The notes under the pieces were generated by a model. That model was not told where the DNA came from. It saw only the letters and a program-made list of their open reading frames with translations, and ran no database searches. A program made the position numbers and the translations under genes. Positions 30,855 through 47,854 of a stretch of 64,000 nucleotides of DNA are shown piece after piece. Numbering within the stretch: position 1 is the first letter of the stretch; each line of letters starts with the position of its first letter. Source of the DNA: a candidate division KSB1 bacterium (GTDB lineage: Bacteria > Zhuqueibacterota > JdFR-76 > DREG01); contig JADFJB010000003.1 of NCBI GenBank assembly GCA_022566355.1, positions 23,501-87,500 of the forward strand. Reading direction: 5' to 3'.

Positions 30855-31091
30855 ATGGCATATGTGGTGAGCAAAAAATTAGATTGTCGATGGTTATACG
30901 ACCCACTTCCAATTATCCGCTTAAGTTGTGCTGTTCGACAATTAAATGCTGGAGAAATCATTGAAATGATATCAAATGATCCTGCAGCTTTGTATGATAT
31001 GAAAGCATGGAGTAAATTAACCGGCCATACCGTACTAGAAACAACAAATCGCCCAGACCATACTTGTTTTTTAATTCAAAAAAAGATATAG
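30855..31091 (+). CDS. TusA-like protein lacking the CPxP cysteine
   Basis: 78 residues of TusA/SirA fold: 'LDCRWLYDPLPIIRL' at the N-terminus, then 'LNAGEIIEMISNDPAALYDMKAWSKLTGH' as in the family. In canonical TusA the first motif is GLxCPxP; here the active Cys is replaced by Asp (YDPLP) and Gly by Trp, while an upstream Cys (LDC) is kept. The protein cannot carry a persulfide at the usual site. It leads a tusA-like, tusA-like, dsrE2 cluster with 9- and 21-bp gaps, so it may act as a structural or docking partner. Confidence 0.85.
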   Translation: MAYVVSKKLDCRWLYDPLPIIRLSCAVRQLNAGEIIEMISNDPAALYDMKAWSKLTGHTVLETTNRPDHTCFLIQKKI

Positions 31092-31100
31092 GAGATTTTC

Positions 31101-31340
31101 ATGGCTGAATATGAAATCAAAGAAACCTTGGATTGTAGTGGATTACTATGTTCAGAGCCGGTTATAAAAACAAGCAAAAAAATTAAAGAGTTAGAAGTAG
31201 GTGATGTATTTGAAATGATTTCCACCGACCCGGGTGCAATGCCCGATATGCAAGCATGGGCAAACCAGACCAAACATGAACTGCTGGAGTCTAGTGAGGA
31301 TGGGTCGCTGTACCGTTTTGTAATCAAAAAAACTCATTGA
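31101..31340 (+). CDS. TusA-family sulfur carrier with a CSEP motif
   Basis: 79 residues, preceded by AGGAG. TusA fold with 'LDCSGLLCSEPVIKT': the sulfur-carrying Cys of CPxP is present but the following Pro is Ser. 'LEVGDVFEMISTDPGAMPDMQAWANQTKHELLE' is strongly family-like. It probably carries sulfane sulfur as a Cys persulfide between DsrE-type proteins and an oxidising enzyme. It forms an operon with the flanking tusA-like and dsrE2 genes. Confidence 0.9.
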   Translation: MAEYEIKETLDCSGLLCSEPVIKTSKKIKELEVGDVFEMISTDPGAMPDMQAWANQTKHELLESSEDGSLYRFVIKKTH

Positions 31341-31361
31341 ATTTTAAATGGAGGCAAAACC

Positions 31362-31883
31362 ATGTCAAAAGAAAATGGCACTCGTCGCCTTGCTTTAATC
31401 TCTAGTAAAGGAACTTTAGATTGGGCGTACCCACCATTTATTATGGCGAGCGCTGCCGGAGCGATGGATTGGGAGGTGGCAATTTTTTATACTTTTTATG
31501 GTTTACCGCTTTTAAAGAAAAAATTGGATGCAACAGTTACCCCGATTGGTAATCCTGCCATGCCCATGAAAATGCCTTTTGGCCCGAAAGGTTTTCAAAA
31601 CATTGATTGGAATATCCCAAATCTTTTGATGAGCAATATTCCCGGTTTCGACAATGTTGCTACAAGTTTAATGAAACAGACCTTTAAGAAAAAAGGTGTT
31701 GCCACAATTGAAGAGCTGCGGGAAATGTGTATTGAGATGGACAACGTGCGCTTGATCGGTTGCCAGATGACGATGGATGTTTTCGGTTTTAAACGAGAAG
31801 ATTTTATAGATAAATGTGAAATTGGTGGTGCGGCGACTTTTTTGGAATACGCCGCAGATGCGGATGTAAATCTATTTATTTAG
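31362..31883 (+). CDS. DsrE2-type DsrE/DsrF/DrsH-like protein
   Basis: 173 residues with a GGAGG site before ATG. The Rossmann-like DsrE2 fold opens 'RRLALISSKGTLDWAYPPFIMASAAGAMDWEVAIFYTF' (quoted parts: ISSKGTLDWAYPP; FYTFYGLPLL). Two cysteines, C123 and C134 (LIGCQMTMDVFG), are placed as in family members that bind sulfur. DsrE2 proteins receive and pass sulfane sulfur with TusA and rhodanese in sulfur oxidisers. The DrsE-type hydrophobic middle (MPMKMPFGPKGF) suggests membrane contact. Confidence 0.9.
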   Translation: MSKENGTRRLALISSKGTLDWAYPPFIMASAAGAMDWEVAIFYTFYGLPLLKKKLDATVTPIGNPAMPMKMPFGPKGFQNIDWNIPNLLMSNIPGFDNVATSLMKQTFKKKGVATIEELREMCIEMDNVRLIGCQMTMDVFGFKREDFIDKCEIGGAATFLEYAADADVNLFI

Positions 31884-31962
31884 GTATCACACTTTCTTTG
31901 ATTAGGATATGATACAAAATAGTAGGGTATACAGATTTTCTTGGAGATGCTCACAGAAGGGT

Positions 31963-32046
31963 CGCTTTTTTCGCGAAGCTCAAGCAGCCGTATCTCTTAA
32001 TCACGCTAACATTGCCGCGATTTATGAAGTTGATGAAAATCGATAA
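31963..32046 (+). pseudogene. Fragment of a Ser/Thr kinase N-lobe
   Basis: The frame RFFREAQAAVSLNHANIAAIYEVDENR-stop (first part RFFREAQAAVSLNHANIAAI) closely matches the alpha-C/beta-4 segment of bacterial Ser/Thr kinases, e.g. RFIHEAKAASALQHNNI in the kinase at 19.6 kb. The glycine loop and catalytic loop are missing, so it is a decayed remnant between dsrE2 and the rhodanese gene. Confidence 0.65.
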
Positions 32047-32155
32047 CCAGGCTTTTATCGCAAAGAAGGAGGCAAAGAAGATATTCTCGGAAGGTTGAGA
32101 AACGATTAAGCGTTACATGCGTGTTGTAGAGCAACCTGATTGAAAGACAGAGAAA

Positions 32156-33379
32156 ATGACCAAACAACAAGCACAAAAGACGGAGTGGACGGTCCGGGAA
32201 CAGAAGGAACATCTGGATCGCCGTGCGAACTTCTTTATTCTTGATGTGCGCAACCGCGACGAGTTCTCCGTCTGGAAGATCGAGGGGTGGAAAACACCGC
32301 CCACATTGAACGTACCTTACTTCGAGATGTATGAGAAGGGCGGCAAGGACGACTTCATCGAGTCGATAATTGCCTATATCGAGATCGAGTTGCTTGGACA
32401 GTTACCCAAGGACCGACCGATCTTGGCCGTTTGTTCCAAGGGCAACACCTCGGCATACGTGGCCGAAGGCCTATGTCAGCTCGGTTACGACGCATTCAAC
32501 CTACAGGGTGGCATGCAGGCATGGGGCAACTTCTACGAGATCAACCCAGTCACCGAAAGCCGCGAGTTGAGCGTCTACCAGATCAGCCGGCCAGCGCGTG
32601 GCTGCTTGAGTTACATCATCGTAAGCGATGGCCAAGCGGTGGTCATCGACCCGTTGCGCCATATCGAAACATACCTCGACATCGCGAGCGCGAAAGGATT
32701 CCAAATTGAACACATCATGGAGACCCACGGCCATGCCGATCATATTAGCGGTGGGTCAAAGCTGGCCAAACAGCTCAACCGACGGTACTACCTCCACCCT
32801 TACGACGGCATCCACCTCCTTGATATGCTACCAGCTCGCATTCCTTTCGAGTACCTGCGTGACGGTCAGGCGCTCTCGGTCGGCAAGGCGAAAATCCAAA
32901 CCCTACATATCCCAGGTCACACACTTGGTAATGTGGCCTATCTTCTGAATGAAGCGTACTTGTTCACCGGTGACAGCATCTTTATCAACTCGATCGCCCG
33001 TCCGGATCTCGGTGGACGTGGGGAGACCTGGGCGGGGCTGCACTATCACTCCCTAAGAAGACTACTCGATTTTCCCGACACGACGTTTGTGCTACCGGGT
33101 CACTTCAGCACTCCACGCGAAGCCAACGTCGCCGGGCTTTTCATGGCTTCCTTGGGCGAGCTAAAGGAGAAGAACGAGGGCCTGCACATGGCCCAGAAGA
33201 GCGAAGATGCGTTTGTACAGTACATTTTGGGAAGCCTACCGGAGTTCCCGTCGCAGTACGTTGAGATCAAGCGGGTAAACGCGGGCCTGCTTCTCGTCGA
33301 CGAAGTTAAGGCGAGTGAGCTTGAGCTAGGAAAAAACGTCTGCGCGTTGGCGCAAGCCTACGAAACAGAGTCGACTTGA
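32156..33379 (+). CDS. Rhodanese / metallo-beta-lactamase fusion (persulfide dioxygenase-like)
   Basis: 407 residues. Residues about 10-130 form a rhodanese domain with C93 in 'AVCSKGNTS'. Residues 140-350 form an MBL-fold domain with 'THGHADHISGG', 'HIPGHTLGNV', 'TGDSIF' and 'LPGHF', the iron-ligand set of ETHE1/persulfide dioxygenases. Such fusions oxidise glutathione- or protein-bound persulfide to sulfite and move sulfur via the rhodanese Cys. GC content and codon use are visibly higher than in the neighbours, indicating recent transfer. It is followed 40 bp on by a broken tusA of the same composition. The sulfite would feed the SoeA-like enzyme downstream. Confidence 0.9.
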   Translation: MTKQQAQKTEWTVREQKEHLDRRANFFILDVRNRDEFSVWKIEGWKTPPTLNVPYFEMYEKGGKDDFIESIIAYIEIELLGQLPKDRPILAVCSKGNTSAYVAEGLCQLGYDAFNLQGGMQAWGNFYEINPVTESRELSVYQISRPARGCLSYIIVSDGQAVVIDPLRHIETYLDIASAKGFQIEHIMETHGHADHISGGSKLAKQLNRRYYLHPYDGIHLLDMLPARIPFEYLRDGQALSVGKAKIQTLHIPGHTLGNVAYLLNEAYLFTGDSIFINSIARPDLGGRGETWAGLHYHSLRRLLDFPDTTFVLPGHFSTPREANVAGLFMASLGELKEKNEGLHMAQKSEDAFVQYILGSLPEFPSQYVEIKRVNAGLLLVDEVKASELELGKNVCALAQAYETEST

Positions 33380-33418
33380 GCACCGCATGAGTTGAGGAAT
33401 CATAAGAAGGGATTAAGT

Positions 33419-33563
33419 ATGAGAATGACATTCGACAAGGTTCTGGATGCACGCGGGCTCGCCTGCCCCATGATCGGATATTAAAACCAAGGCATATGCA
33501 ACAATGGCCGAGGATTCTACTAAACTAATAGTATTTACATATAGTATTTACATAAAAAAATAG
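33419..33563 (+). pseudogene. Truncated, frameshifted tusA
   Basis: AAGAAGGG then ATG opens MRMTFDKVLDARGLACPM, the start of a canonical TusA with intact CP motif, but a TAA follows at once. A second frame supplies IKTKAYATMAEDST and then AT-rich non-family residues to a stop at 33563. The GC-rich composition ends within the gene, so the insertion boundary of the transferred block probably lies here. Confidence 0.75.
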
Positions 33564-33695
33564 ATGGTACCAGGCGTTGGGGGATAAATTCCATACAAGA
33601 GTTATTTTCGTGATACAAAGATTAAAAATCGATATTCTTTGATATTTGAGAGGATGCAAAGGCACAATTAGGAAAATTACGGGGACAATTATTAA

Positions 33696-33755
33696 ATGAT
33701 CGGCAAACCATCCTCCACTACAAATTTCTCTCCAAACGCGACGACCACAATTGAA
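33696..33755 (+). pseudogene. Ser/Thr kinase N-terminal stub, copy 2
   Basis: ATG ATC GGC AAA opens MIGK. After one lost base the sequence reads TILHYKFLSK, matching MIGKTISHYKILEK of the kinase at 19.6 kb. Nothing of the kinase core follows. Confidence 0.55.
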
Positions 33756-33919
33756 ACAATTGGGTAGTTTCAAATGCGACAAAATTATCTATTTACACAA
33801 ATATACAAACAAAGTCAAAAAATCATTGATTTTTAACTTATCAATTTGTAAAATTCAATATCGTAGAAACGGAAATATCTCCTGACTAAAATCAAAAACT
33901 ATCTTGTAATAACCATATC

Positions 33920-33946
33920 ATGATCGGCAAGACAATATTTCACTAA
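33920..33946 (+). pseudogene. Ser/Thr kinase N-terminal stub, copy 3
   Basis: MIGKTIFH then stop, again the first residues of the kinase family seen at 19.6 kb. It lies 100 bp before the iron-sulfur subunit gene; the surrounding gap is otherwise AT-rich and featureless. Confidence 0.5.
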
Positions 33947-34046
33947 AAAAATTCAAATATCGCGTGCTGGCCAAGGTATTTCAGATATTTTCAAGATACT
34001 TAAGCAGAGCTTGGTCAAAACAATGAAAACTAACCTGGATCGTTAA

Positions 34047-35717
34047 ATGCAATTTGGATTCATTATCGACAACCGTAGATGTATTGGTTGCCACGCTTGT
34101 ACTGTAGCATGTAAAGCAGAACATGATACTCCTCTGGGTGTCAATCGAACCTGGGTTAAATATATTGAGAAGGGTGAATTCCCAAACACACGCCGCTTGT
34201 TTTCGGTCATGCGCTGCAACCACTGTGCGGATGCGCCCTGTGTGGAAATTTGTCCTACCGGGTCCTTATTCACTCGTGAAGACGGCATCGTCGATTTTGA
34301 TAAACGTCGCTGTATCGGCTGTAAAGCTTGCATGCAAGCCTGTCCCTACGACGCGCTTTACATCGACCCTGAAACGGATACAGCGGCAAAATGTAACTAT
34401 TGCGCCCATCGAGTAGATATTGGTTTAGAGCCGGCTTGTGTAAATGTTTGTCCAACTCATGCGATCATTTCCGGTGATATGGACGATCCGCAATCGGAAA
34501 TATCTCAACTATTGGCTCACGAGAAAGTCACGGCAAGGAAAGTCGAAAAAGGAACTCAACCTAAATTGTTCTATATCGATGGAGATGAGGCGTCTTTAAA
34601 TCCAGCTGCAACAGATCAATCGAGTGATTATATGTGGAACTCACAAATCTCCGGAGTCGGCCATTTTGCCAGCTATGCTGAAAATCGGATTGCAAGTTCT
34701 GATCCACAAGAATTGCTCAATCAATTAACCGGCAGTAACGGTGATGATAAACAATGGCTATCCAGTGAGAAAAACCCCAAAGAAAAAGTGCTAGTTCCTG
34801 AAAGCCAAGGTAGCGAAATTATCCAACAAAAAGCCAAAGATGTTGTCGAAGAAACAACCAAGCGAGTTTATGATAGTCCGGGTAAAGGAGTCTTGTGGGG
34901 TTGGGAAGTGCCGGCTTATATCTGGACCAAAGCGGTTTCAACGGGTGCATTCCTGGTTCCTTTCCTGGCATTCGTGGGTGGTTTTTCTTCGGTTAGCGAC
35001 CCAGTTCAATGGCTTGGATTGAGCCTGGGATTGTTATTTCTTGTTTTAACCAATATTCTGCTAATTAAGGACTTGGATCAGCCATTTAGATTTGCTTATG
35101 TTTTGCTAAGACCCCAGTGGCGATCCTGGCTGGTCCGTGGTGGCTATGCAATCACTTTTTATGGTGGATTGTTGACCGCCGGGATTATTACAAAGTTAAG
35201 CGGATTAACCAATCTGGAAATTTTGGTAAAATGGCTTTGTGCAATCGTCGCAGTTATAACTTCTGTTTATACCGCATTCTTACTTGCCCAGGCTAAAGGC
35301 CGCGATTTTTGGCAGAGTCCGATCTTACCGTTTCATATGATCGTTCACACAATGCTAGCTGGTGCTGCTATTTTTGCTTTTCTGTCACCCATAGCCGGAT
35401 TTGATCAAAGTTGGCATACTTATTTGGATCATGTTTTTTACACGTTTATTATTCTAAACTTACTGATTATTAGTGTGGAGTTATTTACACCACACCCGAC
35501 AGCAGATTCAAAGGTCGTTGTAGATATGATAATACGTGGACGGTTCAAGAGGCTATTCAAAGTGGGTGTTGTCATTATGGGCAATATCGTTCCATTATTC
35601 TTTGTTTTGTTGGGCAGCCCGGAATTATTGCCGTTTGTGGGTTTGTTGATTTTGATGGGGATCTATTTCACAGAACATATCTGGGTGCTGGCGCCGCAAC
35701 TGGTTCCATTAAGTTAG
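34047..35717 (+). CDS. Fused 4x[4Fe-4S] / NrfD-type membrane subunit (SoeB-SoeC-like)
   Basis: 556 residues combining two usual subunits. Residues 1-160 form a DmsB/SoeB-type electron-transfer module with four cysteine clusters (CIGCHACTVAC; CNHCADAPCVEIC; CIGCKACMQAC; CNYC..CVNVC). A linker of about 120 residues leads through 'GWEVPAYIWTKAVSTGA' to about eight hydrophobic helices of the NrfD/DmsC family (280-556), the quinone-site module. The FeS part has no Tat signal, so it should face the cytoplasm. It pairs with the molybdoenzyme that follows after 73 bp. The SD is weak. Reaction (sulfite oxidation versus polysulfide/thiosulfate reduction) is inferred from context. Confidence 0.9.
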   Translation: MQFGFIIDNRRCIGCHACTVACKAEHDTPLGVNRTWVKYIEKGEFPNTRRLFSVMRCNHCADAPCVEICPTGSLFTREDGIVDFDKRRCIGCKACMQACPYDALYIDPETDTAAKCNYCAHRVDIGLEPACVNVCPTHAIISGDMDDPQSEISQLLAHEKVTARKVEKGTQPKLFYIDGDEASLNPAATDQSSDYMWNSQISGVGHFASYAENRIASSDPQELLNQLTGSNGDDKQWLSSEKNPKEKVLVPESQGSEIIQQKAKDVVEETTKRVYDSPGKGVLWGWEVPAYIWTKAVSTGAFLVPFLAFVGGFSSVSDPVQWLGLSLGLLFLVLTNILLIKDLDQPFRFAYVLLRPQWRSWLVRGGYAITFYGGLLTAGIITKLSGLTNLEILVKWLCAIVAVITSVYTAFLLAQAKGRDFWQSPILPFHMIVHTMLAGAAIFAFLSPIAGFDQSWHTYLDHVFYTFIILNLLIISVELFTPHPTADSKVVVDMIIRGRFKRLFKVGVVIMGNIVPLFFVLLGSPELLPFVGLLILMGIYFTEHIWVLAPQLVPLS

Positions 35718-35790
35718 GAAAGCGCCTAAAGCGCCAAAATTGCCAAATGCTTATTATCATATATTTTTTGGTTACCAATAGGAGAATTTA

Positions 35791-38652
35791 ATGTCCGACC
35801 GGAATTCGGGAAATCTAATTGAAAAAATAGCCGAGAAACTGCACCTCATTCCAAATCTACATACAGAAACTGGACCCGATCTTCAAAGTTTAACCGAAGC
35901 TGGCAAGCTAACGGATTTTCCTCCTATCGAAAAGTGGGACGATTGGGTTGAATATGAAGCGAAAAGCTGGCCGCGACGCGACCCCAAGCATTATATGATC
36001 ATACCAACGACATGCTTTAATTGTGAAGCCGGCTGTGGTTTACTAAGCTACGTCGACAAAGAGACTATGACTGTCCGAAAATTTGAGGGCAATCCTTATC
36101 ATCCAGCCAGCCGAGGGCGGAATTGTGCTAAGGGGCCGGCAACGATCAATCAAATTAATGATGAGGACAGAATCCTTTATCCGATGAAACGAAAAGGCAA
36201 GCGCGGGGAAGGTGGCTGGGATCGCGTTTCGTGGGATGAAGTTTTGGATGATTTTTCGGGACGAATACGAAAAGCGCTTCAGGAGAAACGAAATAATGAA
36301 GTCGTTTATCACGTTGGTCGACCGGGTCATGAGGGTTATATGGATCGAATACTACAGTCCTGGGGTGTGGATGGCCACAACAGCCACACCAATATTTGTT
36401 CTGCCGGTGCGCGATTTGGTTATGCGATTTGGCATGGTTTCGACCGGCCTTCTCCGGATCATGCCAATGCAAAATTAATATTGCTGATCTCTGCTCATCT
36501 TGAGTCCGGACATTATTTTAACCCTCATGCACAAAGAATAATAGAAGGATTAATGAACGGTTGCAAATTGGTGGTTATGGATCCACGGCTCTCCAATACC
36601 GCCAGTATGGCTGATTATTGGCTGCCTACTTATCCAGGCAGTGAAGCGGCCGTGCTTTTGGCCATGGCAAAAGTGATTCTCGATGAAAGCCTTTTCGATG
36701 AAAAATATTTACATGATTGGGTAAACTGGCAAGAGTTTCTGCAAAAAGAACATCCAACTGTAGAAGTAAACTTTGCTAATTTTATTCGATTGCTGAAAGA
36801 AACCTACCAGGAATACACACCGGAATTCGCCGCTAACGAAAGCGGAATTGATGCCGAGACCATTATTGAGGTCGCACGCAAAATAGGTGAAGCCGGAAGT
36901 CGATTTTCATCCCATAATTGGCGCAGTGCGGGTAGCGGAAATTTAGGTGGCTGGGCTGTTTCGCGCTGTTTGCATTTTTTGAATGTGCTCACGGGTAGTG
37001 TCGGAACAGTGGGGGGGACGTCGCCAAGCGGTTGGAACAAATTTAAACCAACTGTCTTTGATAAGCCACCCGCACAAAAATTCTGGAATGAATTGCATTT
37101 TCCAAACGAATATCCGCTCGCACATTACGAAATGAGTTTTCTATTGCCGCATTTCTTGAAAGAGGGGAGAAGTAAACTGGATGTGTATTTCACCCGGGTT
37201 TTTAATCCGGTATGGTCTTTTCCTGATGGTTTTACCTGGATTGAAGTATTACAGGATGAAAGCAAAATTGGCCTGCACGCTGCCTTAACACCCACCTGGA
37301 ATGAAACAGCGTTTTTTGCGGATTATGTTCTGCCGATGGGCCATGCAAGCGAGCGGCATGACTTGATCAGCTACGAGACCCATTCCGGCATGTGGATTGC
37401 TTTTCGTCAACCTGTTTTGCGTGAGGCTGCTCGAAAAATGGGTAATCCTGTCCAATTTACTTATGAGGCTAACCCTGGAGAAGTGTGGGAGGAGGACGAG
37501 TTTTGGGTCGAATTATCCTGGCGGATTGATCCGGATGGGAGCCTGGGGATTAAAAAACATTTTATGTCCCCTTATAGAAAGGGAGAAAAAATCACCATTG
37601 ATGAATATTATCAATTCGTTTTTGATAATGTACCTGGGTTGCCGGAAAAAGCGGCTGAAAAAAAGTTGACTCCACTGGAATATATGCGAATTTACGGCGC
37701 TTTTGAGGTGGAGAAAACTTCATATCATAAGCATCTAAAACCGCTAACAAAAGAAGAATTAAAGAAAACTAAGGTGGATACAAAAACGGGAACGATTAAA
37801 ACGAAAGAAAAAATTGTCGGTGTTTTTGCGGATGGAAAATCTTATGCCGGATTCCCGACGCCTTCTAAAAAGCAAGAGTTTTATTCCCAAACGATGGTCG
37901 ATTGGAATTGGCCAGAATATAAAATTCCAATTTATATAAAAAGTCATGTTCATCCGGATCAAATGGATCGAAGCAAAGGAGAGTTCCCATTGGTGCCAAC
38001 TTTTCGGTTACCGACCCTGATTCATTCCCGATCTGGTAATGCCAAATGGCTTATGGAAATTTCGAATCGCAATCCAATTTGGATGCATACTTCAGATGGA
38101 AAAGACCTGGGAATAAAGACAGGGGATTTGCTGCGGGTAAATACAGACATCGGTTATTTTGTCGATCGGGTTTGGCTAACAGAAGGGATGAAACCGGGCA
38201 TCGTGGCGTGTTCTCACCATCTCGGCAGGTGGCGGCGGCCACAAGATGCTAAGGGAAATCGATGGGCAACCAATTTGGTTTCCATCAAACAAATGAAAAA
38301 TGGCAAATGGAAAATGAGGCAATTGGATGGCATCCGCCCCTATAAAAGCAACGATCCGGATTCGTCCCGTATCTTTTGGAGCGATGGCGGTGTACATCAA
38401 AATCTCACTTTCCCTGTTCATCCGGATCCAGTCAGCGGTATGCATTGCTGGCATCAAAAGGTGAGAATTGAGAAAGCGCATCCGGAAGATAAATATGGCG
38501 ATGTGGTGGTCGATACCAATCGCTCCTTTGAAATTTATAAAGAATGGTTGAAAAAAACTCGTCCGGCGCCAGGTCCAGGAGGATTGAGAAGGCCGCTTTG
38601 GCTGAATAGACCGCTCCGTCCATCGGAAGAGATGTTTTACATCGATTTATAA
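35791..38652 (+). CDS. Molybdopterin oxidoreductase, SoeA/PsrA-like
   Basis: 953 residues, AGGAG upstream. The N-terminal [4Fe-4S] site is C75-x2-C78-x3-C82-x29-C112 with Lys114 (CAKG). 'SHTNICSAGARFGY' offers C203 as the likely molybdenum ligand, as in the PsrA/PhsA/SoeA branch. The C-terminal dinucleotide-binding domain holds 'FRLPTLIHSRSGNAKW' and 'HLGRWRRP'. There is no Tat or Sec signal, so it is cytoplasmic, as in SoeABC sulfite dehydrogenase and unlike periplasmic PsrA/TtrA. With TusA/DsrE2/rhodanese-MBL upstream and SulP downstream, sulfite:quinone oxidoreductase is the best guess. Confidence 0.88.
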   Translation: MSDRNSGNLIEKIAEKLHLIPNLHTETGPDLQSLTEAGKLTDFPPIEKWDDWVEYEAKSWPRRDPKHYMIIPTTCFNCEAGCGLLSYVDKETMTVRKFEGNPYHPASRGRNCAKGPATINQINDEDRILYPMKRKGKRGEGGWDRVSWDEVLDDFSGRIRKALQEKRNNEVVYHVGRPGHEGYMDRILQSWGVDGHNSHTNICSAGARFGYAIWHGFDRPSPDHANAKLILLISAHLESGHYFNPHAQRIIEGLMNGCKLVVMDPRLSNTASMADYWLPTYPGSEAAVLLAMAKVILDESLFDEKYLHDWVNWQEFLQKEHPTVEVNFANFIRLLKETYQEYTPEFAANESGIDAETIIEVARKIGEAGSRFSSHNWRSAGSGNLGGWAVSRCLHFLNVLTGSVGTVGGTSPSGWNKFKPTVFDKPPAQKFWNELHFPNEYPLAHYEMSFLLPHFLKEGRSKLDVYFTRVFNPVWSFPDGFTWIEVLQDESKIGLHAALTPTWNETAFFADYVLPMGHASERHDLISYETHSGMWIAFRQPVLREAARKMGNPVQFTYEANPGEVWEEDEFWVELSWRIDPDGSLGIKKHFMSPYRKGEKITIDEYYQFVFDNVPGLPEKAAEKKLTPLEYMRIYGAFEVEKTSYHKHLKPLTKEELKKTKVDTKTGTIKTKEKIVGVFADGKSYAGFPTPSKKQEFYSQTMVDWNWPEYKIPIYIKSHVHPDQMDRSKGEFPLVPTFRLPTLIHSRSGNAKWLMEISNRNPIWMHTSDGKDLGIKTGDLLRVNTDIGYFVDRVWLTEGMKPGIVACSHHLGRWRRPQDAKGNRWATNLVSIKQMKNGKWKMRQLDGIRPYKSNDPDSSRIFWSDGGVHQNLTFPVHPDPVSGMHCWHQKVRIEKAHPEDKYGDVVVDTNRSFEIYKEWLKKTRPAPGPGGLRRPLWLNRPLRPSEEMFYIDL

Positions 38653-38673
38653 TATGCTCTAGTTAGCTGGATA

Positions 38674-38999
38674 ATGAAACGAAAGAAAATACCATACGGA
38701 ACAAAATTACCTGTCATGCTAACCTTACGTGAACGGGATATCATCCGTGATGAGACATTCTGCGATCAAGACTTTGCAAAATTGGCTTTAGTAGACGGCA
38801 AAAGGATTAAAGTCGAACTGTCATTGGGGACATCGAGGAAATTCAGGGGTACATAGCAGCCGAGGCAAATCATACGAAAAATAAAAAACTCAAGAAAGAA
38901 CTTGATCGCCTTTTCGATAAACTTCAGGTCTTTCTGGATACTTACGATGATCAACATGAATTAGACAGCTTACAAATTCATCCAGCCGACCGGGAATAA
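38674..38999 (+). pseudogene. Frameshifted small conserved protein
   Basis: The first frame (MKRKKIPYGTKLPVMLTLRE to VELSLG) stops at 38856. Adding one base in the GGGG run at about 38825 continues DIEEIQGYIAAEANHTK and KELDRLFDKLQVFLDTYDD to the stop at 38999, about 108 residues. The pattern is basic N-terminus, mixed middle and helical end. No function is recognised. It starts 21 bp after the molybdoenzyme and may belong to that transcript. A homopolymer sequencing error is possible. Confidence 0.6.
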
Positions 39000-39122: not shown

Positions 39123-40850
39123 ATGGAAATCTCCAAAATAACCGATCATATTCGAACTTATAACAAAACACTATTTCGCCGTGATATTATCGCTGGGCTC
39201 ACCGTCACCTTTGTGGCAATCCCGCAATCGATGGTCTATGCACTTATTGCTGGTGTTGAACCGCAATATGGTTTGTACGCTTTTATGGTGGGTTCAATTG
39301 TCGGATCGATTTTTGGTTCATCACGTCATCTGAACACTGGGCCAACGAATGCCACATCAATAGTTATTGCCAGCACCCTGGCTTTATATTCTGTTGATGA
39401 CCAATTTTTGAAGATGGTTTTTCTATTGGGATTCCTTTCTGGATGTTTGCAACTAGGTGCCGGACTTTTAAAGTTGAGCAACTTAACTCATTTTCTTTCT
39501 CGCTCAGTATTAGCTGGTTTTATCGGCGGGGCGGGCCTTTTTATCATTGTCAACCAGATGCCCAATTTAATGGGATTTTCAAAAAATACTAATTCCTCTG
39601 TATTTGAGGGAGTAAAACACATATTTAACAGTTTGGATCAAATTCAACCAACTGTTTTATTGGTGGGAATTGGATCTATTTTATTAACACTCCTTATTAA
39701 TAGGCTAAGCCCAAAAACAACTTCAGGAATTCCCATTTTACCGTCGTACCTGATTTCTATTTTATTGTCAGCGGCAATTGTTGTGATATTTGATCTTGGA
39801 GATACAGTCAAAGTGGTGGGAGATATCCCCAGGTCTCTGCCACCTTTAAGCATGCCACTATTTGAGTTGGAATCTATTCAAACTCTGATGCAAGGCGCAA
39901 TAGCGATAGCATTTATAGGATTAGCAGAAGCTACGTCTGCAGCCAAAATAGTAGCAGACTTTGCTGGTGATAAGCTGCAAGTTGACAAAGAATTTAGAGG
40001 CCAGGGACTTGCAAAAATTGCAACATCCTTTTTTAGCGGAATACCTGTTTCGGGCTCATTTACCAGGAGTTTACTTTGCTACAGAGCAGGTGCAGAGACA
40101 AAAATGGCGAATATTATGGCCGGTATTTTTGTTGCAATTGCCGTGTTATTTTTTGGTCCGGTTATTAAACACATCCCATTAGCGGCTTTGGCTGGTATTG
40201 TTATGTTGATTGCAAGCAATATGGTTGATTGGAAATACGTTAAAATGGCTCTTCGCTCATCGAATGTGGATTCATTAGCTATTCTTGCAACTTTTTTTGC
40301 TGCCCTGTTTTTTTCATTGGTCACTGCAATTTATATTGGTGTGGGGTTTTCCCTGGTCCTGTTCCTTCGCAGGGTAAAGAAGCCTAACCTTGTTGAGTTG
40401 ATATACGATGATAAGTTCGGGTTCAAAGAAAAAACTGAATCTAATCAAAGTTCCATTCCTGAGCTTACCATTATCCATGTTGAAGGAGATGTTTTTTTTG
40501 CCAGCGTAGATTCTGTGGATGATGATATTCAAAAGATTGCTCAACGAAATGCGGTAAAAGTGATTATACTTAGATTGAAAAGAGCCTTTAGCCTGGATGC
40601 AACTTCTATGATGGTATTTATGAAAATCTATAAGGATTTAGAAAAACAAGGCAAATTGTTGCTCATCTCAGGAGCTGGCGGGCAAGTTAAAAAGATTATT
40701 CACGAATCAGGTTTGGATAAAGTAATTGGCGAAGACCACATTTTTTATTCAGATGAGAACTTATTTAAATCCACACGCGCTGCGATTAGTTATGCGCTTC
40801 AATTCATCAATGCGAATTATGGTACAAATTATACGATGTCTAATTTGTAA
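39123..40850 (+). CDS. SulP-family anion transporter with STAS domain
   Basis: 575 residues. The membrane domain (about 20-400) has the SulP signature 'VAIPQSMVYALIAGVEPQYGLYAFMVGS' (parts: AIPQSMVYALIAG; GSSRHLNTGPTNATS) and 'SGSFTRSLLCYRAGAETKMANI'. The cytoplasmic STAS domain (430-555) has 'IIHVEGDVFFASVDSV' and 'IILRLKRAFSLDATSMMV'. SulP proteins move sulfate, bicarbonate or other anions. Beside a sulfite-oxidising gene set and molybdate importers, sulfate export or sulfate/molybdate uptake are both plausible. No good SD precedes the ATG. Confidence 0.92.
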   Translation: MEISKITDHIRTYNKTLFRRDIIAGLTVTFVAIPQSMVYALIAGVEPQYGLYAFMVGSIVGSIFGSSRHLNTGPTNATSIVIASTLALYSVDDQFLKMVFLLGFLSGCLQLGAGLLKLSNLTHFLSRSVLAGFIGGAGLFIIVNQMPNLMGFSKNTNSSVFEGVKHIFNSLDQIQPTVLLVGIGSILLTLLINRLSPKTTSGIPILPSYLISILLSAAIVVIFDLGDTVKVVGDIPRSLPPLSMPLFELESIQTLMQGAIAIAFIGLAEATSAAKIVADFAGDKLQVDKEFRGQGLAKIATSFFSGIPVSGSFTRSLLCYRAGAETKMANIMAGIFVAIAVLFFGPVIKHIPLAALAGIVMLIASNMVDWKYVKMALRSSNVDSLAILATFFAALFFSLVTAIYIGVGFSLVLFLRRVKKPNLVELIYDDKFGFKEKTESNQSSIPELTIIHVEGDVFFASVDSVDDDIQKIAQRNAVKVIILRLKRAFSLDATSMMVFMKIYKDLEKQGKLLLISGAGGQVKKIIHESGLDKVIGEDHIFYSDENLFKSTRAAISYALQFINANYGTNYTMSNL

Positions 40851-41262
40851 TTGTATGTTGACTCTAAAAACCAGCTTTCTTTCGAATCTTGAAAACCGAT
40901 ACATTGATTCCATAAATAAATATTATATTATAAACATCATTTGAGGTCAACAGAAAGTCGGTTTTCACAGTAATCACTAGCGAAGCTTCGCCTCAACCGA
41001 CAAGAAAAACAAGCTTAATAAACTCGAAATGCTAATATCGAAATTCTAAACAAATTCCAAATACACCAAACAAAACGAAGAAACCTATTGAGGAGAGTCA
41101 ATCAATTTTGCCCTGTTTTTAATTTTGTACATTGGAATTTTCGATATTGTTTAGAATCTAGAATTTTGGATTTCGAATTTTAAATCAAAGTAATTTTATT
41201 TAATCGCAAAAAATCTTGACTCAAAATCAAAGTTGGATTTCTGATAAAACATTTAATTATAT
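40851..41262. other. AT-rich intergenic region with dispersed repeat
   Basis: Contains AATTCTAAACAAATTCC at about 41041, closely related to the sequence next to the heptad array at 60.3 kb, and a loosely inverted copy near 41147. No gene, RNA or clear promoter was recognised. Confidence 0.45.
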
Positions 41263-41859
41263 ATGTTTGAAAACTTATCTGCCGCCATCATCGCAGGGGG
41301 AAAAAGTGCCAGGTTTGGAGAGCATAAAGGGTTGGCTGTTCTAAATTCTCGACAAATGATTGACTATTCGATTGTCCTTGCAAAAGAGATCGGGTTTTCT
41401 CAATTCCTGGTATATGGCAAGGAAAATTACTTTGACCAAATTGACATACCTTGTTATTCCGATATCATCCCACATTGTGGACCAATGGGTGGGATTTATA
41501 CAGCTTTGGTGAAAGCACAAACAAATTTAGTCGCAACCATTCCTTGTGATATGCCTTTTCTAACGGCAGAAGTGTATAGATTGCTTTATGATAATTATGG
41601 GGAAAACAAGCCTGTTATTGCAGTTTCAGAAAACGGCGTAGAATCCCTGGTAGCAATATGGCCAAAAACATATGAAAGTAAATTAAGGGATGCAATTCAC
41701 AAGAAAGTTTTTACAATTCATGCATTCATTCAAAATAATGATATCCCTAAAATATCCATTCCTGAATTAATGCCGGATTATGAGGAGAAAATTTTTCTTA
41801 ATATTAACACGAAAGAAGATTTAGCAGCTATCCAAAAAAATTCTTATTGGAGTAAATAA
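41263..41859 (+). CDS. mobA: Molybdenum cofactor guanylyltransferase
   Basis: 198 residues. Nucleotidyltransferase motif 'AAIIAGGKSARFGEHKGL' (GG and downstream Lys), 'CGPMGGIYTAL' and 'ATIPCDMPFL' with the metal-binding Asp. MobA attaches GMP to molybdopterin, giving the bis-MGD cofactor that the DMSO-reductase-type enzyme at 35.8 kb needs. It is a stand-alone gene within the molybdenum island with no clear SD. Confidence 0.93.
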   Translation: MFENLSAAIIAGGKSARFGEHKGLAVLNSRQMIDYSIVLAKEIGFSQFLVYGKENYFDQIDIPCYSDIIPHCGPMGGIYTALVKAQTNLVATIPCDMPFLTAEVYRLLYDNYGENKPVIAVSENGVESLVAIWPKTYESKLRDAIHKKVFTIHAFIQNNDIPKISIPELMPDYEEKIFLNINTKEDLAAIQKNSYWSK

Positions 41860-41886
41860 TAGAATTCGTTAGAACTTACTAAATTG

Positions 41887-42267
41887 TTATATTTTCCTGT
41901 TTATCAGTTTCAGACGCGTCGCTGGAAGGCGTTTAAGTCGTTGATTTCTCGGATCAACTTCGATGCCCGCAGATTCAAGTGCAGTCACACCGAGAATAGG
42001 CTCAACGTCTTTTCCTCCAAAAATGACAGTTCCACCTACGAAATCACCCATAAATTCAATGTCAGCGGTAGTTATATCCATTTTGATTTTACTGCCATCG
42101 GCGAGTTCATAAATTCTTTGGCCTTTGGGTTTTAGACCTATACTTTTAAGATGCTGCCCTGGAACGAGAGTATCTATAGCACCGGTATCCACGAGAAAAA
42201 GTCCTTCCCAACTCTTGTTAGATTCAGCAGGGTTACGTATTGTGACTGTAACATGAGTGGATCCCAT
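41887..42267 (-). CDS. Retropepsin-like aspartic protease
   Basis: 126 residues. Catalytic motif 'FLVDTGAIDTLVP' (DTG) and the second conserved element 'ILGVTALESAGIEVDP' match small bacterial aspartyl proteases of the retropepsin-like PF13650/PF13975 type, which act as dimers. There is no signal peptide or membrane anchor. Its setting between mobA and moeA has no obvious meaning. GATAGGT precedes the ATG. Confidence 0.85.
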   Translation of the reverse strand: MGSTHVTVTIRNPAESNKSWEGLFLVDTGAIDTLVPGQHLKSIGLKPKGQRIYELADGSKIKMDITTADIEFMGDFVGGTVIFGGKDVEPILGVTALESAGIEVDPRNQRLKRLPATRLKLINRKI

Positions 42268-42852
42268 TATTTTACCTATCTCATAAGATAAATTTTTAAC
42301 AACAATTCGATTTGATTAATTGTACGCTGACTGATCTCAGAATTATGTTTAACCATCCTTGTTTGACGAAGTGCGTTAATATATGCAGATATCCTATAAA
42401 ATCAATATAAAACGCCAGGGTGCTAAATCCTTAAATCCGTGGATTACCGCTTATATGCTTATAGATATTAATGAGGTGGTGTAATTTGTTATGCAATCAC
42501 GTATTTTGTTGAGCCACATAAAATAATCTAAGTAATCTAACGAATGACCAAGTTATTTTCTCAAACTACTTTTTGATATACCTTATTAGCTATAATTTCT
42601 TGATAAGAGGAATTGGGTTTTAACAGCAAACCTATGATTAGTTTAACCTGTCTTGTGTTTATCTGCTCGTCAGTATAAAACTTGCCGGTTCCCGGAATAT
42701 TAGATGGATCCAGGCTTGAATTGCGAAGACGCCATTTCTAATCATCAAAGTCAATGTAGCCACGAAGGTTTTAATAACTTATCGCAAATAAAAAATGTCA
42801 ATGCATCTATTTTTTCTTTTTTTCTTTGTTACTCTGTGCCTTTGTGCCTTTG
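42268..42852. other. Intergenic region with a possible reverse-strand gene remnant
   Basis: Between 42737 and 42561 on the reverse strand there is an open stretch of 59 codons without a start (RNSSLDPSNIPGTGKFYTD, then QVKLIIGLLLKPNSSYQ) that looks coding but matches no family I recognise. Near 42826-42862 the sequence GTTACTCTGTGCCTTTGTG is the inverse of a GTGACAAAGGCACAAAG string at about 13125. Confidence 0.35.
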
Positions 42853-44073
42853 TTACTTTGTTACCACCCAGGGAAATAAAAAAGCGTCGATAAGTTCGCC
42901 CTCGTACAAAGATACACCAGCATCAATGAGTATAAACCCATTCGCATTGACAATGGTCGAAATCATGTGCGAACCTTGTTTCTCCAAAGGATAAGCTATT
43001 GGTTTTCCTTGTGAATTTGTTGTGATTTGAACACGCATAAGATGAGCTCTGTTTAATTTGTTTTGAATAGGCTCTTGTAATTCCGCTTGCAAGGGGAAAG
43101 CGGTCTTAACTTTTCCACATAGCTGATGAATCATTGGATGGATAAAATAGGAATAACACATAAATGCTGAAACGGGATTTCCGGGTAATCCAAACAAAAG
43201 AGTATTCTCTTTTTTAGCGAACAGAAGCGGTTTGCCTGGTTTTATCCGAACTCGCCAAAATAAAGTTTCGAATCCCACTTTCTGTACCGCTTCTTTAATA
43301 TGGTCGTGAGGTCCCACTGAAACACCGCCAGATAAAATGATGAGGTTGCAATTTTCCATAATCCGCTCAAGTAATTCGACTGTTTGATCCAGGCTATCAG
43401 GAACTTTTTCCACGGCTTTCACTAAACCGCCGGATTGTTGCAGTGCTGTGGACAGCATGATTCCATTTGAATCGCGAATTTGCCAAGGTTGTACAGGCTG
43501 ATCAAATGGGACAAGTTCAGTTCCGGTAACAATTATGGCTGCTTGTGGTCTCGCATAGACGGATAATTGAGATAAGCCTACTGAAGCCAATAAAGCAATC
43601 TGGGGGGGATGGATTTCCATACCCTTGGGGATTAGAAGATCGCCTGCTTTAAATTCCTCACCTTCATAGCGAATATTTTGTCCCTTCTTTTTAACCTGCA
43701 AAATCTTAACCATTGAGCCGGTTACTTCTACTTCTTCAATTGGGACAACCGTATCAGCACCTTCAGCCACCATGGCGCCTGTACTGATTCTAACAGCTTT
43801 ACCCGATATTAATTTTTCCTGAAATGGTATTCCCGCCTGGCTTTCTCCAACGATTTTGAGAGACACCGGGTTTGCAGATGAAGTGGATCGGATATCATCC
43901 CATCGCAATGCAAAGCCATCCATGGCGCTGTTGGTATAACGGGGTGAAGGCTCCGGTGCAAGAATATCTTCTGCAGATATTAACCCTAACGCATCTTGCA
44001 ATTTTGCCGAAGTTATTTCTTTTTCCGGTAAATGATCTTGAATGATTTTAGATGCTTCTTGTATTGAAATCAT
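42853..44073 (-). CDS. moeA: Molybdopterin molybdenumtransferase
   Basis: 406 residues. Family motifs 'RYTNSAMDGFALR', 'VRISTGAMVAEGADTVVPIE', 'IIVTGTEL', 'ILSGGVSVGPHDHIKE' and 'FGLPGNPVSAFMCY' are all present. MoeA inserts molybdate into adenylated molybdopterin. The last codons run into a dispersed GTAACAAAG repeat (ending FPWVVTK), so the natural C-terminus may have been altered slightly. Transcribed towards mobA, against the rest of the island. Confidence 0.94.
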   Translation of the reverse strand: MISIQEASKIIQDHLPEKEITSAKLQDALGLISAEDILAPEPSPRYTNSAMDGFALRWDDIRSTSSANPVSLKIVGESQAGIPFQEKLISGKAVRISTGAMVAEGADTVVPIEEVEVTGSMVKILQVKKKGQNIRYEGEEFKAGDLLIPKGMEIHPPQIALLASVGLSQLSVYARPQAAIIVTGTELVPFDQPVQPWQIRDSNGIMLSTALQQSGGLVKAVEKVPDSLDQTVELLERIMENCNLIILSGGVSVGPHDHIKEAVQKVGFETLFWRVRIKPGKPLLFAKKENTLLFGLPGNPVSAFMCYSYFIHPMIHQLCGKVKTAFPLQAELQEPIQNKLNRAHLMRVQITTNSQGKPIAYPLEKQGSHMISTIVNANGFILIDAGVSLYEGELIDAFLFPWVVTK

Positions 44074-44287
44074 ATTGGATACTCCAACTGAAGATTTACA
44101 ATTATAGATTATTTTTGGATCATCATAATAATGGCGTACTTATTCTTTGCCACAGACTTGCACAGACTAAAACGGAAATGCGATCAGACAGGATTAGCAT
44201 GATGAACAAGATTTATAAAGCGATAAATAAAAATGGCTAGTGCTTCTAAAACCGTTGAAACGGTTATAACTTATTGTTTTTTTGTCA

Positions 44288-44315
44288 TTAACACCTGGCT
44301 TAAGCCAGGTGTTAA
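44288..44315. repeat. 28-bp perfect palindrome
   Basis: TTAACACCTGGCTTAAGCCAGG plus GTGTTAA (split here) reads identically on both strands with no loop. GTTGAAAC and GTTTCAAC elements flank it at 44255-44335, forming a larger imperfect hairpin. It lies in the 829-bp gap between moeA and modA, in which no gene was found. Confidence 0.85.
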
Positions 44316-44703
44316 TAGGATTATGAATGGTTTCAACCGCTTTAGCTGTTTTTATAACCATCATTCTTCTATCTACATACGTTCTGTGTTTATATTGAAA
44401 TTAAAGAAATATTTTTTTAAACTGATTTTTATCTGAATCAATCAACATTTTATGAGAAATTTAACGTCTTAAAATAAAGCATTCATTCAATATTTTTGGC
44501 GTAAGATTATTGAAATATTTCCTTAGATAAACTTCGATTCCTAATTGAAAAAGTACGTAGATAAATCATTAAAGACCAGAAAGAAAAAGATTTTGAACTG
44601 TTTGAATATATCGCTAAATATAATGTCAACATTGATCCAGTTCCGTTATTTTCAAGTGAGAAATGTTAGTATGTAATAAACATTCTGAAAATACCTTAAT
44701 TAG

Positions 44704-44760
44704 CTGTCGTTTCGAGGCAGCGTCGTGAACGTAGTCGAACGGAGTTTACGATGAGAAATC
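44704..44760. repeat. Dispersed 57-bp repeat, copy 2
   Basis: Reverse complement of 4644-4700 with three mismatches. The rest of the gap up to modA is AT-rich and shows no gene. Confidence 0.85.
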
Positions 44761-44902
44761 TATTGATCCAAAAAATATAACTTGTAAAAGGCAAGATTTT
44801 TCCTCCTTGAGTTTTGTAATTGTTAAATGACCCTAGCCAATAAACGTTTGAATAATAGTACGCATTTGTTTAAATTGCAAGGCTTAAAAGTAACATTAGA
44901 AT

Positions 44903-45664
44903 ATGAAGTCTATCACAAAAATAATAATACTTTTTAATTTCTTCCTGAGTTTAGCAATCCAGGTCTATGCACAAGAACTAACTATTGCGGTTGCCGCAAA
45001 TGTTCAGTTTACCATGGAAGAAATTCAAAAAGAATTTACCAAAAAAACAGGCATTCCACTAAACACAGTGATCGGTTCATCCGGAAAGTTAACGGCTCAA
45101 ATTAATAATGGCGCTCCCTTTGATGTATTTTTGTCTGCAGACATGAAATATCCTGAATTCTTATTTGCAAATAAAAAAGCTGTTACAGAACCTGAAATTT
45201 ATGCACATGGCAGTTTGGTATTGTGGACACGAAAAGATCTGGAATTGATGGATCTGGTCTCGGTTTTAAAAGATGAAAGAGTACAGAAAATTGCTATAGC
45301 CAAACCTAAAACCGCTCCCTATGGCCGGGAATCTTTGAGAGTTTTACATCTCCACAAAATTTTTGATGCAATCGAAGACAAGCTGGTATATGCCGGAAGT
45401 ATTGCACAAGTTAATCAGTACGTGGATTCCAAAGTGGTGGATATCGGCTTCACGGCAAAATCTGCGGTGTTGTCCGAGAAATTGCTTGGGAAAGGCGCAT
45501 GGCTGGAAATTGATCCAGCCGATTATATGCCAATCGATCAGGGTGTGGTTATTTTGAAGCATGGACTACAAAAATATCCTGAAGAGAGCAGGTTATTTTA
45601 TGATTTCCTTTTCTCAGATAGGGCCAAAGATATTTTCAAAAAGAACGGTTACCGATTGCCATGA
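44903..45664 (+). CDS. modA: Molybdate ABC transporter substrate-binding protein
   Basis: 253 residues with a signal peptide ending VYAQ. ModA motifs are 'TIAVAANVQFTMEEIQKEF', 'GSSGKLTAQINNGAPFDVFLSAD', 'KTAPYGRES' and 'VDIGFTAKSAV'. The Ser/Val/Tyr positions of the oxyanion site are in place. It captures molybdate or tungstate in the periplasm for ModB/ModC. Its stop overlaps the start of the next gene (ATGA), so the cluster is an operon. Confidence 0.94.
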   Translation: MKSITKIIILFNFFLSLAIQVYAQELTIAVAANVQFTMEEIQKEFTKKTGIPLNTVIGSSGKLTAQINNGAPFDVFLSADMKYPEFLFANKKAVTEPEIYAHGSLVLWTRKDLELMDLVSVLKDERVQKIAIAKPKTAPYGRESLRVLHLHKIFDAIEDKLVYAGSIAQVNQYVDSKVVDIGFTAKSAVLSEKLLGKGAWLEIDPADYMPIDQGVVILKHGLQKYPEESRLFYDFLFSDRAKDIFKKNGYRLP

Positions 45665-46065
45665 ATAAACTCAAGGCTGAAATTGTTCGGATCGATTCTT
45701 CAAAAGATATCTCATTGGTTGATTTAAAAGTCAAAAACGATATTTTTTCGTGTGTGGTTATTGAGACTCCCGAGACAGCTGATTATCTAAAAATTGGAAA
45801 TCAAGTGACCATTTTATTCAAGGAAACTGAGGTTGCTATCGGTAAGAATCTTTCCGGTGAAATAAGTTTACGGAACCGGGTTCAGTCAATTATTAAACAT
45901 ATTGAAAAGGGTGAAGTCTTAACCAGGTTAGTCTTAGATTATGAAGGAGTCGATATTGGATCCATCATCACAACTCGTTCGGCAAATCGTTTGAAGTTGG
46001 AGAAAGGGGATGAAGTCGTTGGATTAATCAAAGCGAATGAAGTTTCAATTTTAGAGGGAGATTGA
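45661..46065 (+). CDS. Di-Mop (TOBE) molybdate-binding protein
   Basis: 134 residues made of two TOBE/Mop-like repeats of about 65: 'LKAEIVRIDSSKDISLVDLKV' with 'VTILFKETEVAIGK', and 'RNRVQSIIKHIEKGEVLTRLVLDYEG' with 'LKLEKGDEVVGLIKANEVSI'. It lacks the HTH of ModE. Small Mop proteins store molybdate in the cytoplasm or sense it. It overlaps modA by four bases and ends one base before modB. Confidence 0.88.
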   Translation: MNKLKAEIVRIDSSKDISLVDLKVKNDIFSCVVIETPETADYLKIGNQVTILFKETEVAIGKNLSGEISLRNRVQSIIKHIEKGEVLTRLVLDYEGVDIGSIITTRSANRLKLEKGDEVVGLIKANEVSILEGD

Positions 46066-46066
46066 A

Positions 46067-46738
46067 TTGGAATTCAACCTGTCGCCACTAATTCTGACAT
46101 TCAAACTCGCTATCATTACAACTTTTTTCCTTTTGTTAATCGGATTGCCCCTGGCGTATTGGTTAACGTATTGGAAGAATAAAAGTAAATATTTGCTGCA
46201 AACTTTAGTGAGTATGCCACTCGTTCTGCCTCCAACCGTAATCGGATTCTATTTGCTCATTGCCTTTAATCCGGAAAATTTCTTTGGCAGATTTTTGCTA
46301 TCGGTTTTTGATATTCAATTGGTGTTTTCATTCGAAGGACTTGTGGTCGCTTCCATGATTTATAGTTTACCATTTATGGTTAATCCCATTCAAGCAGGAT
46401 TGCAGAGTTTACCGGCTTCTATTATGGAGGCATCTTACACACTGGGAAAATCTAAACTGAAAACGTTTACGCATGTGCTGATCCCTAATATTAAGCCATC
46501 CTTAATAACCGGCATCATCATTAGTTTTGCACATACTGTTGGTGAATTTGGCGTGATCTTGATGATTGGTGGGAGTATCCCCGGTAAAACCAGGGTTGCC
46601 TCAATAGCTATTTACGACGAGGTGGAAGCCCTCAATTATGACAATGCACATTATTATTCATTGATTTTATTTGCGATCACGTTTGTCATTTTACTTGCAG
46701 TTTATATTTTTAATCGCAGGTATTTGAAGGCATTTTAG
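46067..46738 (+). CDS. modB: Molybdate ABC transporter permease
   Basis: 223 residues from a TTG start with GAGGGAG about eight bases upstream. Five to six TM helices; the coupling motif 'EASYTLGKSKLKTFTHVLIPNIKPSLITG' (EAA loop) and 'AHTVGEFGVILMIGGSIPGKT' are characteristic of ModB/CysT-type permeases. It forms the inner-membrane channel with ModC. Confidence 0.94.
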   Translation: MEFNLSPLILTFKLAIITTFFLLLIGLPLAYWLTYWKNKSKYLLQTLVSMPLVLPPTVIGFYLLIAFNPENFFGRFLLSVFDIQLVFSFEGLVVASMIYSLPFMVNPIQAGLQSLPASIMEASYTLGKSKLKTFTHVLIPNIKPSLITGIIISFAHTVGEFGVILMIGGSIPGKTRVASIAIYDEVEALNYDNAHYYSLILFAITFVILLAVYIFNRRYLKAF

Positions 46739-46975
46739 GATTGAAATATTTTCAAAGAGACATGAAGGACACGGAGGAAGAAGAATGAAGAAAGAAAAAA
46801 GATAAAAGAAAAAACCAAAAAAAAGGAAAAGACGATTATTTTTGGTGAATTTGTATCCACAATTACCGCGGTAGGGTAAATATTTGTAACACTATTCGCC
46901 AATAAAAATTGAAGAACCCCGGAAGGGTTCCATATAAACAAACTTACCCAAAAGATAAATATCTTTCATAATTTA
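46739..46975. other. Purine-rich spacer inside the mod operon
   Basis: 237 bp between modB and modC, unusual for genes that normally abut. From 46752 to 46835 the plus strand is almost entirely A and G (runs such as GAAGAAGAATGAAGAAAG). No gene or terminator was identified; a separate promoter for modC is possible. Confidence 0.5.
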
Positions 46976-47854
46976 ATGATAAAAATTAAAGTTACAAAAA
47001 CCCTACAAGATCCAGAAGGTGAATTTCAACTGAACCTGGATGTGGAGATTAATGATAATGAATTCATTACCTTGTATGGTAAATCCGGTGCGGGCAAAAC
47101 CACGACACTACGGATTTTAGCGGGATTGTTGAATCCCGATTTTGGCACGGTCCATGTCGATGATGAAGTCTGGTATGACAGTAAACATGGCGTGAATTTA
47201 ACTCCCCAACAAAGAGGGATCGGTCTGGTTTTCCAGGACTATGCTTTATTTCCCAACATGACCGTGCGGAAAAATCTCGAATATTCGTTAGATTCAAAAA
47301 AGGATTTCCAAATCATCGATACTTTGTTAGAATTAATGGGCCTGGAAAACCTGGCAAGCCGTAAGCCCAATTCGCTTTCAGGAGGACAACAACAACGGGT
47401 TGCTTTGGCTCGTGCTTTGGTACGCAAACCAAAACTTCTCCTTCTCGATGAACCTTTATCAGCTTTGGATATGGAAATGAGATCCAAGCTGCAAGATGAA
47501 ATTTTAAAGATCCATCACGAATTTGCCATCACGACGATCCTGGTTAGCCACAGTTTCGCGGAAATATTTAAACTATCGAACCGAGTGTTTGTGATTGATA
47601 AAGGAAAAATCACCAAGACCGGAAATCCTGCTGATATTTTCATAGACAGGAAATTAAGCGGTAAATTTAAGTTTGAAGGCAAAATCCTGGCGTTGCAAAA
47701 AAGTGATGTCGTTTATATCGCAACAATTTCTATTGGAAATAACATTGTAAAAGTAATTGCTTCAGATGAAGAAGCGCGGCAATTCAATATTGGTGATCGA
47801 GTGGTGGTTTCCTCGAAGGCGTTTAATCCGATTTTGATGAAAATTGATCCTTAA
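46976..47854 (+). CDS. modC: Molybdate ABC transporter ATP-binding protein
   Basis: 292 residues. Walker A 'GKSGAGKTT', Q-loop 'VFQDYALFPNMT', signature 'LSGGQQQRVALARAL', Walker B 'LLLLDEPLSALD', switch 'VSHS'. After residue 230 there is a degenerate C-terminal TOBE-like domain. It powers ModA/ModB uptake of molybdate. No SD is visible, so translation may rely on an A/T-rich leader. Confidence 0.92.
   Translation: MIKIKVTKTLQDPEGEFQLNLDVEINDNEFITLYGKSGAGKTTTLRILAGLLNPDFGTVHVDDEVWYDSKHGVNLTPQQRGIGLVFQDYALFPNMTVRKNLEYSLDSKKDFQIIDTLLELMGLENLASRKPNSLSGGQQQRVALARALVRKPKLLLLDEPLSALDMEMRSKLQDEILKIHHEFAITTILVSHSFAEIFKLSNRVFVIDKGKITKTGNPADIFIDRKLSGKFKFEGKILALQKSDVVYIATISIGNNIVKVIASDEEARQFNIGDRVVVSSKAFNPILMKIDP

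Follow-up and report, generated by a model that had tools for sequence, protein, structure and literature searches.

A compact sulfur gene cluster on a 64,000-nucleotide stretch of a candidate division KSB1 genome (contig 3 of genome G000, positions 23501-87500; the whole stretch is called the window below) was compared with its counterparts in related genomes. With moderate confidence, the cluster is read as one in which a single horizontally acquired gene, coding for a rhodanese-metallo-β-lactamase (MBL) fusion, replaced a type II sHdr-LbpA-ETF block (ETF: electron-transfer flavoprotein) of about ten genes in place, the sulfur carriers and the Soe-SulP part being kept. This reading draws on the observed gene content, orthology, break in synteny, absence of sHdr from the assembly and foreign composition of the rhodanese-MBL gene. 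The cluster is fairly likely to be a cytoplasmic route from sulfane sulfur to sulfate consisting of two exchangeable halves, the front one of which (sHdr) was swapped for a persulfide dioxygenase (PDO). What is new is the proposed swap within the island; the core enzyme itself is widely shared and of an already described type. The host genome is a draft of 4.62 Mb in 213 contigs (98.5% complete), and the compared genomes are drafts as well.

Synteny break and sHdr systems of relatives

The window retains tusA1 (30855-31091), tusA2 (31101-31340) and dsrE2 (31362-31883) as well as the iron-sulfur (FeS)/NrfD gene (34047-35717), moA (35791-38652; the label used here for the 953-residue molybdopterin catalytic subunit) and sulP (39123-40850), all on the forward strand. 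The intervening sHdr block is missing, and the replaced segment (31884-34046, forward strand) holds the rhodanese-MBL gene (32156-33379, forward strand) as the sole gene between dsrE2 and the FeS/NrfD gene. The borders were located by blastn: window positions 30863-31885 matched L202 (73%), positions 34056-35155 matched L040 (70%), and no match was obtained in between. Similarity to G001, a genome of the window's own family, stops at the dsrE2 stop codon and restarts at the start of the FeS/NrfD gene.

In all eight relatives that bear dsrE2, this gene stands with an sHdr system in the order two tusA genes (most genomes), lplA (several), a small dsrE, a GcvH-like lbpA and then the hdr genes (hdrC1, hdrB1, hdrA, a hypothetical protein and a CCG subunit). 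The sHdr form is present in G001 and seven other members of the phylum. Because it occurs in four families, we infer that the window form was derived from it. The genes of G001 lie on two contigs, which would form one cluster: the first reads tusA1-tusA2-dsrE2-lplA-dsrE-lbpA, and the second hdrA-hyp-hdrC2B2-etfB-etfA, followed by the gene of a 698-residue membrane FeS/CCG protein, FeS/NrfD, moA and sulP. Judged by gene content, this is a type II sHdr system, fitting the published definition of shdrC1B1AHB3 with etfAB (PMC11582611). The 698-residue protein and etfBA are encoded directly before the Soe genes (L040 5233-9227, G001:C283), an arrangement that suggests an sHdr-ETF-quinone electron path.

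The sHdr hypothetical protein was not found anywhere in the window's own genome, and no CCG protein of the sHdr type was found there, the only candidates being a 252-residue LutA/LldE-like protein and a 993-residue frame. Neither dsrA nor soxB was detected in the whole genome. The lack of Dsr, Sox and Hdr-like genes, which a sequence-only reading of this DNA had reported for the window, thus holds genome-wide; that reading had missed the lost cysteine of TusA1, the sHdr version of the relatives and the fact that the rhodanese-MBL gene is of foreign composition. Within the phylum, sHdr co-occurs with moA (7/8 vs 11/74, Fisher p 6e-5), as does DsrE2 (p 1e-5), both values being uncorrected for shared ancestry.

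Two further sulfur loci were inspected. In the own genome, L199 (G000:C43:26000-33322) carries an aprA fragment at the contig end followed by aprB-cysD-cysNC; its assignment to a dissimilatory apr-sat-qmo set was rejected, and it was judged to be an AprAB-type enzyme in what resembles a sulfate-assimilation set. A genome of the same family (G002:C58:13369-15663) carries dsrA above the cut-off with a dsrB-like neighbour but lacks a close orthologue of moA; members of the family thus differ sharply in their sulfur metabolism.

Rhodanese-MBL gene and sulfur carriers

The rhodanese-MBL gene had a GC content of 54.7% and a GC3 of 67.9%, versus a mean of 37% for 43 open reading frames of the window (z 5.1). 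No close orthologue was found among 99 genomes of the phylum, the best matches being 35-37% identical; horizontal acquisition is the best reading of this composition and of the missing orthologue. The protein is 56% identical to one from Bacteroidetes KatS3mg041 (L100), the cluster of which is ordered rhodMBL-tusA-dsrE2-FeS/NrfD-moA-sulP, and a related gene set with a 34% identical fusion is found on pRHL3 of Rhodococcus RHA1 (L032). Pfam matches placed the rhodanese domain at the N-terminus, and relatives in the PDB are 3tp9 and 3r2u. Residues H193, H255 and D273 of the MBL domain and C93 of the rhodanese domain are present both here and in the L100 protein; from ETHE1 and CstB, we take them to be the iron site and the active rhodanese cysteine, respectively. 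With this fold and these residues, the protein is probably an O2-dependent PDO.

The frames of all three sulfur carrier genes are intact. TusA1 (PF01206, 55 bits) reads CRWLYDPLP, the cysteine of the CPxP motif being gone, and the same loss is common to the copies of relatives (DPLP, GPMQ, EPMP); by its motif, it is a conserved pseudo-TusA. A Cys-less TusA-like protein beside a normal TusA was observed phylum-wide (window 30855-31091, L184-L187, L189-L191). TusA2 (PF01206, 80 bits) keeps its active cysteine in a motif that has drifted from CPMP to CSEP, and is 59-76% identical to the copies in the sHdr clusters of relatives. DsrE2 scored 205.8 bits with NF047629 (cut-off 210); its orthologues in eight other members of the phylum are 78-87% identical, the copy in G001 being at 87%.

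Molybdoenzyme and FeS-NrfD core

Orthologues of moA with 74-83% identity were found in 17 further genomes of this phylum, and plasmid-borne orthologues with 56-62% identity in Thermomicrobium, haloarchaea and Rhodococcus. The genome collection held at least 563 stretches with moA relatives, of which the best 80 (63-79% identity) were kept; these 80 loci belong to Bacteroidota, Chlorobium, KSB1, Planctomycetota, Nitrospinota, Neomarinimicrobiota, Chloroflexota, Latescibacterota and others. In 83 of 93 loci, moA is preceded by a fused FeS-NrfD gene; among the exceptions are several short contigs. The FeS-NrfD gene and the molybdoenzyme gene without a twin-arginine translocation (Tat) signal are a conserved two-gene unit that is ordinary rather than rare. 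The core order is therefore not unique to this contig, and the earlier view that the combination is unusual for an FCB (Fibrobacterota-Chlorobiota-Bacteroidota) genome was dropped, the core being common in Bacteroidota, Chlorobium and many other phyla.

The 556-residue SoeB-SoeC-like subunit (Fer4_11, NrfD) combines a four-cluster ferredoxin domain with 16 cysteines and an NrfD membrane part, with at least seven hydrophobic segments. The N-terminus of the moA product lacks the RRxFL Tat signal carried by its sister clade, and the fusion of the FeS domain to NrfD without a signal peptide is a further argument for the cytoplasmic side. Cysteine 203 of the enzyme aligns with the PsrA/ArrA cysteine that is the Mo ligand in those structures. 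The best NCBIfam score was 195 bits, versus cut-offs of at least 440 (PsrA, PhsA, TtrA, ArrA, ArxA and DmsA tested). In a maximum-likelihood tree built on residues 71-545, the Tat-less enzymes and the Tat-exported sister group joined with a support of 100 and stood apart from ArrA/ArxA (node support 100), TtrA, PsrA/PhsA and DmsA; support within the Tat-less group was low. The tree and the sub-cut-off scores for every curated equivalog agree with the earlier proposal of a cytoplasmic SoeA-type enzyme in a sulfane-sulfur context, and the enzyme does not fall with tetrathionate, polysulfide or arsenate reductases.

By its match to published descriptions, the core would be a sulfite:quinone oxidoreductase of the SoeABC/PSRLC3 type. 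The cytoplasmic bSreA/SoeA lineage has a cysteine ligand, and SreA, a bacterial sulfur reductase, belongs to the wider lineage (PMC10100899). All purple and green sulfur bacteria are said to possess SoeABC (PMC8232776).

Some variants of the enzyme were recorded separately. Several members of the Tat-exported sister clade (L163-L165, L173-L176) have a four-cluster ferredoxin gene upstream. In five loci of relatives from the phylum (L050-L054), extra sequence splits the moA match near residue 838, and two of these (G048:C312 and G024:C20) bear further C-terminal pieces as partial duplicates. A 1498-residue frame at L166 was rejected as a fusion and read as an open-frame run-on.

Gene neighbourhoods and molybdenum genes

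Neighbourhoods were counted in the 54 orthologous loci that had 6 kb or more of flank on either side. At least one sulfur gene lies near moA in 35 of them, with MBL-rhodanese in 21, SulP in 19, rhodanese in 11, DsrE2 in 9, TusA and PmpAB-type genes in 8 each, and TauE and genes similar to sulfide:quinone oxidoreductase (SQR) in 6 each. The sulP gene (PF00916, STAS), which codes for a putative sulfate exporter, adjoins the core in G001 (77% identity) and in many Bacteroidota.

Downstream of sulP, the window carries a mobA-like gene (41263-41859, forward strand; PF12804), moeA (42853-44073; MoeA_N, MoCF_biosynth, MoeA_C), which is encoded on the reverse strand in correction of the earlier gene list, and a set for molybdate uptake identified by family matches (modA, a Mop/TOBE protein, modB and modC; 44903-47854, forward strand). 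All genes named by the sequence-only reading are present as open frames matching their families. Its claim of a dedicated molybdenum supply did not stand: modA/modB occurred near moA in none of the 54 loci, mobA/moeA matches were obtained in three, and the own genome holds a second candidate molybdenum enzyme (L139), so the supply genes were rejected as a defining part of the unit. Four MopB-type proteins including the moA product are encoded in this genome; reading of their sequences, without hidden Markov models, identified the other three as a YdeP-like enzyme, an ACIII-type subunit and NuoG.

Genes of the cystathionine synthase/lyase type and of the CBS/CysK type (13725-15983) lie 15 kb upstream of the cluster and are a possible source of cysteine persulfide. 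A partial decayed copy (48122-48424) of the enoyl-ACP-reductase-like gene at 49148-49978 was also noted.

Proposed route and alternative explanations

In the proposed route, TusA2 and DsrE2 would pass sulfane sulfur to the rhodanese domain, and the MBL domain would oxidise the persulfide with O2 to sulfite. SoeA would then oxidise sulfite in the cytoplasm, with electrons passing via the FeS domain and the NrfD part to quinone, and SulP would export sulfate, the direction of transport being presumed. The relatives would use the type II sHdr-LbpA-ETF machine as sulfur acceptor instead.

Several points weigh against this reading. The gap that separates the two G001 contigs takes in hdrC1 and hdrB1. 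Assignment as a PDO is based on fold and residues, and the curated Blh equivalog scored 60.3 bits where 625 are needed. TusA1, to judge from its sequence, is unable to work as a normal TusA. The own genome yielded no SQR of the type tried (a single SQR-like match was rejected, as it reads as NDH-2), the tree was built without canonical SoeA (Allochromatium vinosum ADC63403.1, Aquifex), and 19 of the 54 loci are missing a sulfur gene nearby.

A role in detoxification is possible, if the less probable view: the unit would clear persulfide and sulfite from cysteine or organosulfur breakdown without notable lithotrophic energy gain. The own genome, having no Sox, Dsr or SQR of the type tried, would suit such a role, as would the cystathionine synthase/lyase-type and CBS/CysK-type genes upstream and the fact that PDO conserves no energy (PMC12345210). 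However, a quinone-reducing membrane enzyme conserves electrons regardless of their source, and SulP and the PmpAB-type neighbours in relatives suggest flux. It is unlikely that tusA1, tusA2 and dsrE2 are remnants of the lost sHdr system that now feed nothing in the cluster. These genes do open the sHdr cluster in relatives, and the drifted motif of TusA2 and the Cys-less TusA1 point the same way, but their intact frames and the close identity of dsrE2 to that of G001 do not, and similar genes accompany MBL fusions in L032 and L100.

We regard it as quite improbable that the molybdoenzyme is reductive or acts on another substrate (polysulfide, thiosulfate, tetrathionate or formate). The presence of SreA in the wider lineage (PMC10100899) and of a Tat-exported sister clade without assigned function would allow for this, yet the tree separates the enzyme from PsrA, PhsA and TtrA, and the SulP, TauE and MBL neighbours indicate sulfite and sulfate. 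It is very improbable that sHdr was missed by the assembly and that the rhodanese-MBL gene was inserted independently of its loss; although the genome is a draft in 213 contigs, its completeness is high, neither the sHdr hypothetical protein nor an sHdr-type CCG protein was found, and the segment is internal to a contig of 94 kb, the window being free of N. Replacement of the sHdr block by the probable PDO gene is the explanation retained here.

Comparison with known systems

The PSRLC3 system of green sulfur bacteria is encoded by two genes (PMC5473276) and has been called their alternative sulfite-oxidising system (PMC6338057). Four Chlorobium loci (L092, L094, L104, L134), equated with PSRLC3 by description only, have the fused FeS-NrfD gene and moA (68-70% identity) and carry dsrE2, tusA and TauE downstream; according to the literature, sulfite in those genomes comes from rDsr, whereas in the window it would come from the probable PDO. 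SoeABC of Allochromatium vinosum and Aquifex shares the Tat-less MopB protein, the cysteine at the ligand position, the four-cluster ferredoxin and the NrfD anchor, but SoeB and SoeC are fused in the window. The type II sHdr system (shdrC1B1AHB3-etfAB, LbpA, lipoate ligase) stands behind the same tusA-dsrE2 genes in G001 and seven relatives, and is absent from the window genome. The PDO-rhodanese fusions CstB, Blh and PRF likewise combine an MBL domain bearing Fe-ligand residues with rhodanese; the window protein differs in its N-terminal rhodanese domain and in its score under the Blh cut-off. Beggiatoa leptomitoformis has the same functional set, PDO and SoeABC without rDsr or sHdr, but its genes are scattered and Soe was undetected in its proteome (PMC11507549).

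The fused SoeBC and SoeA unit occurs across many phyla and is often annotated merely as a generic molybdopterin enzyme. Since it is widespread and no curated family model for it was found in the libraries searched, metagenome surveys may underestimate sulfite oxidation. If the proposed swap is true, the step from sulfane sulfur to sulfite would be a plug-in module, open to exchange for an O2-dependent version. Sister genomes would then link two unlike sulfite-making routes, sHdr-lipoate and persulfide dioxygenase, to a single locus, which would make the exchange testable together with what it costs (loss of the sHdr electrons and a need for O2).

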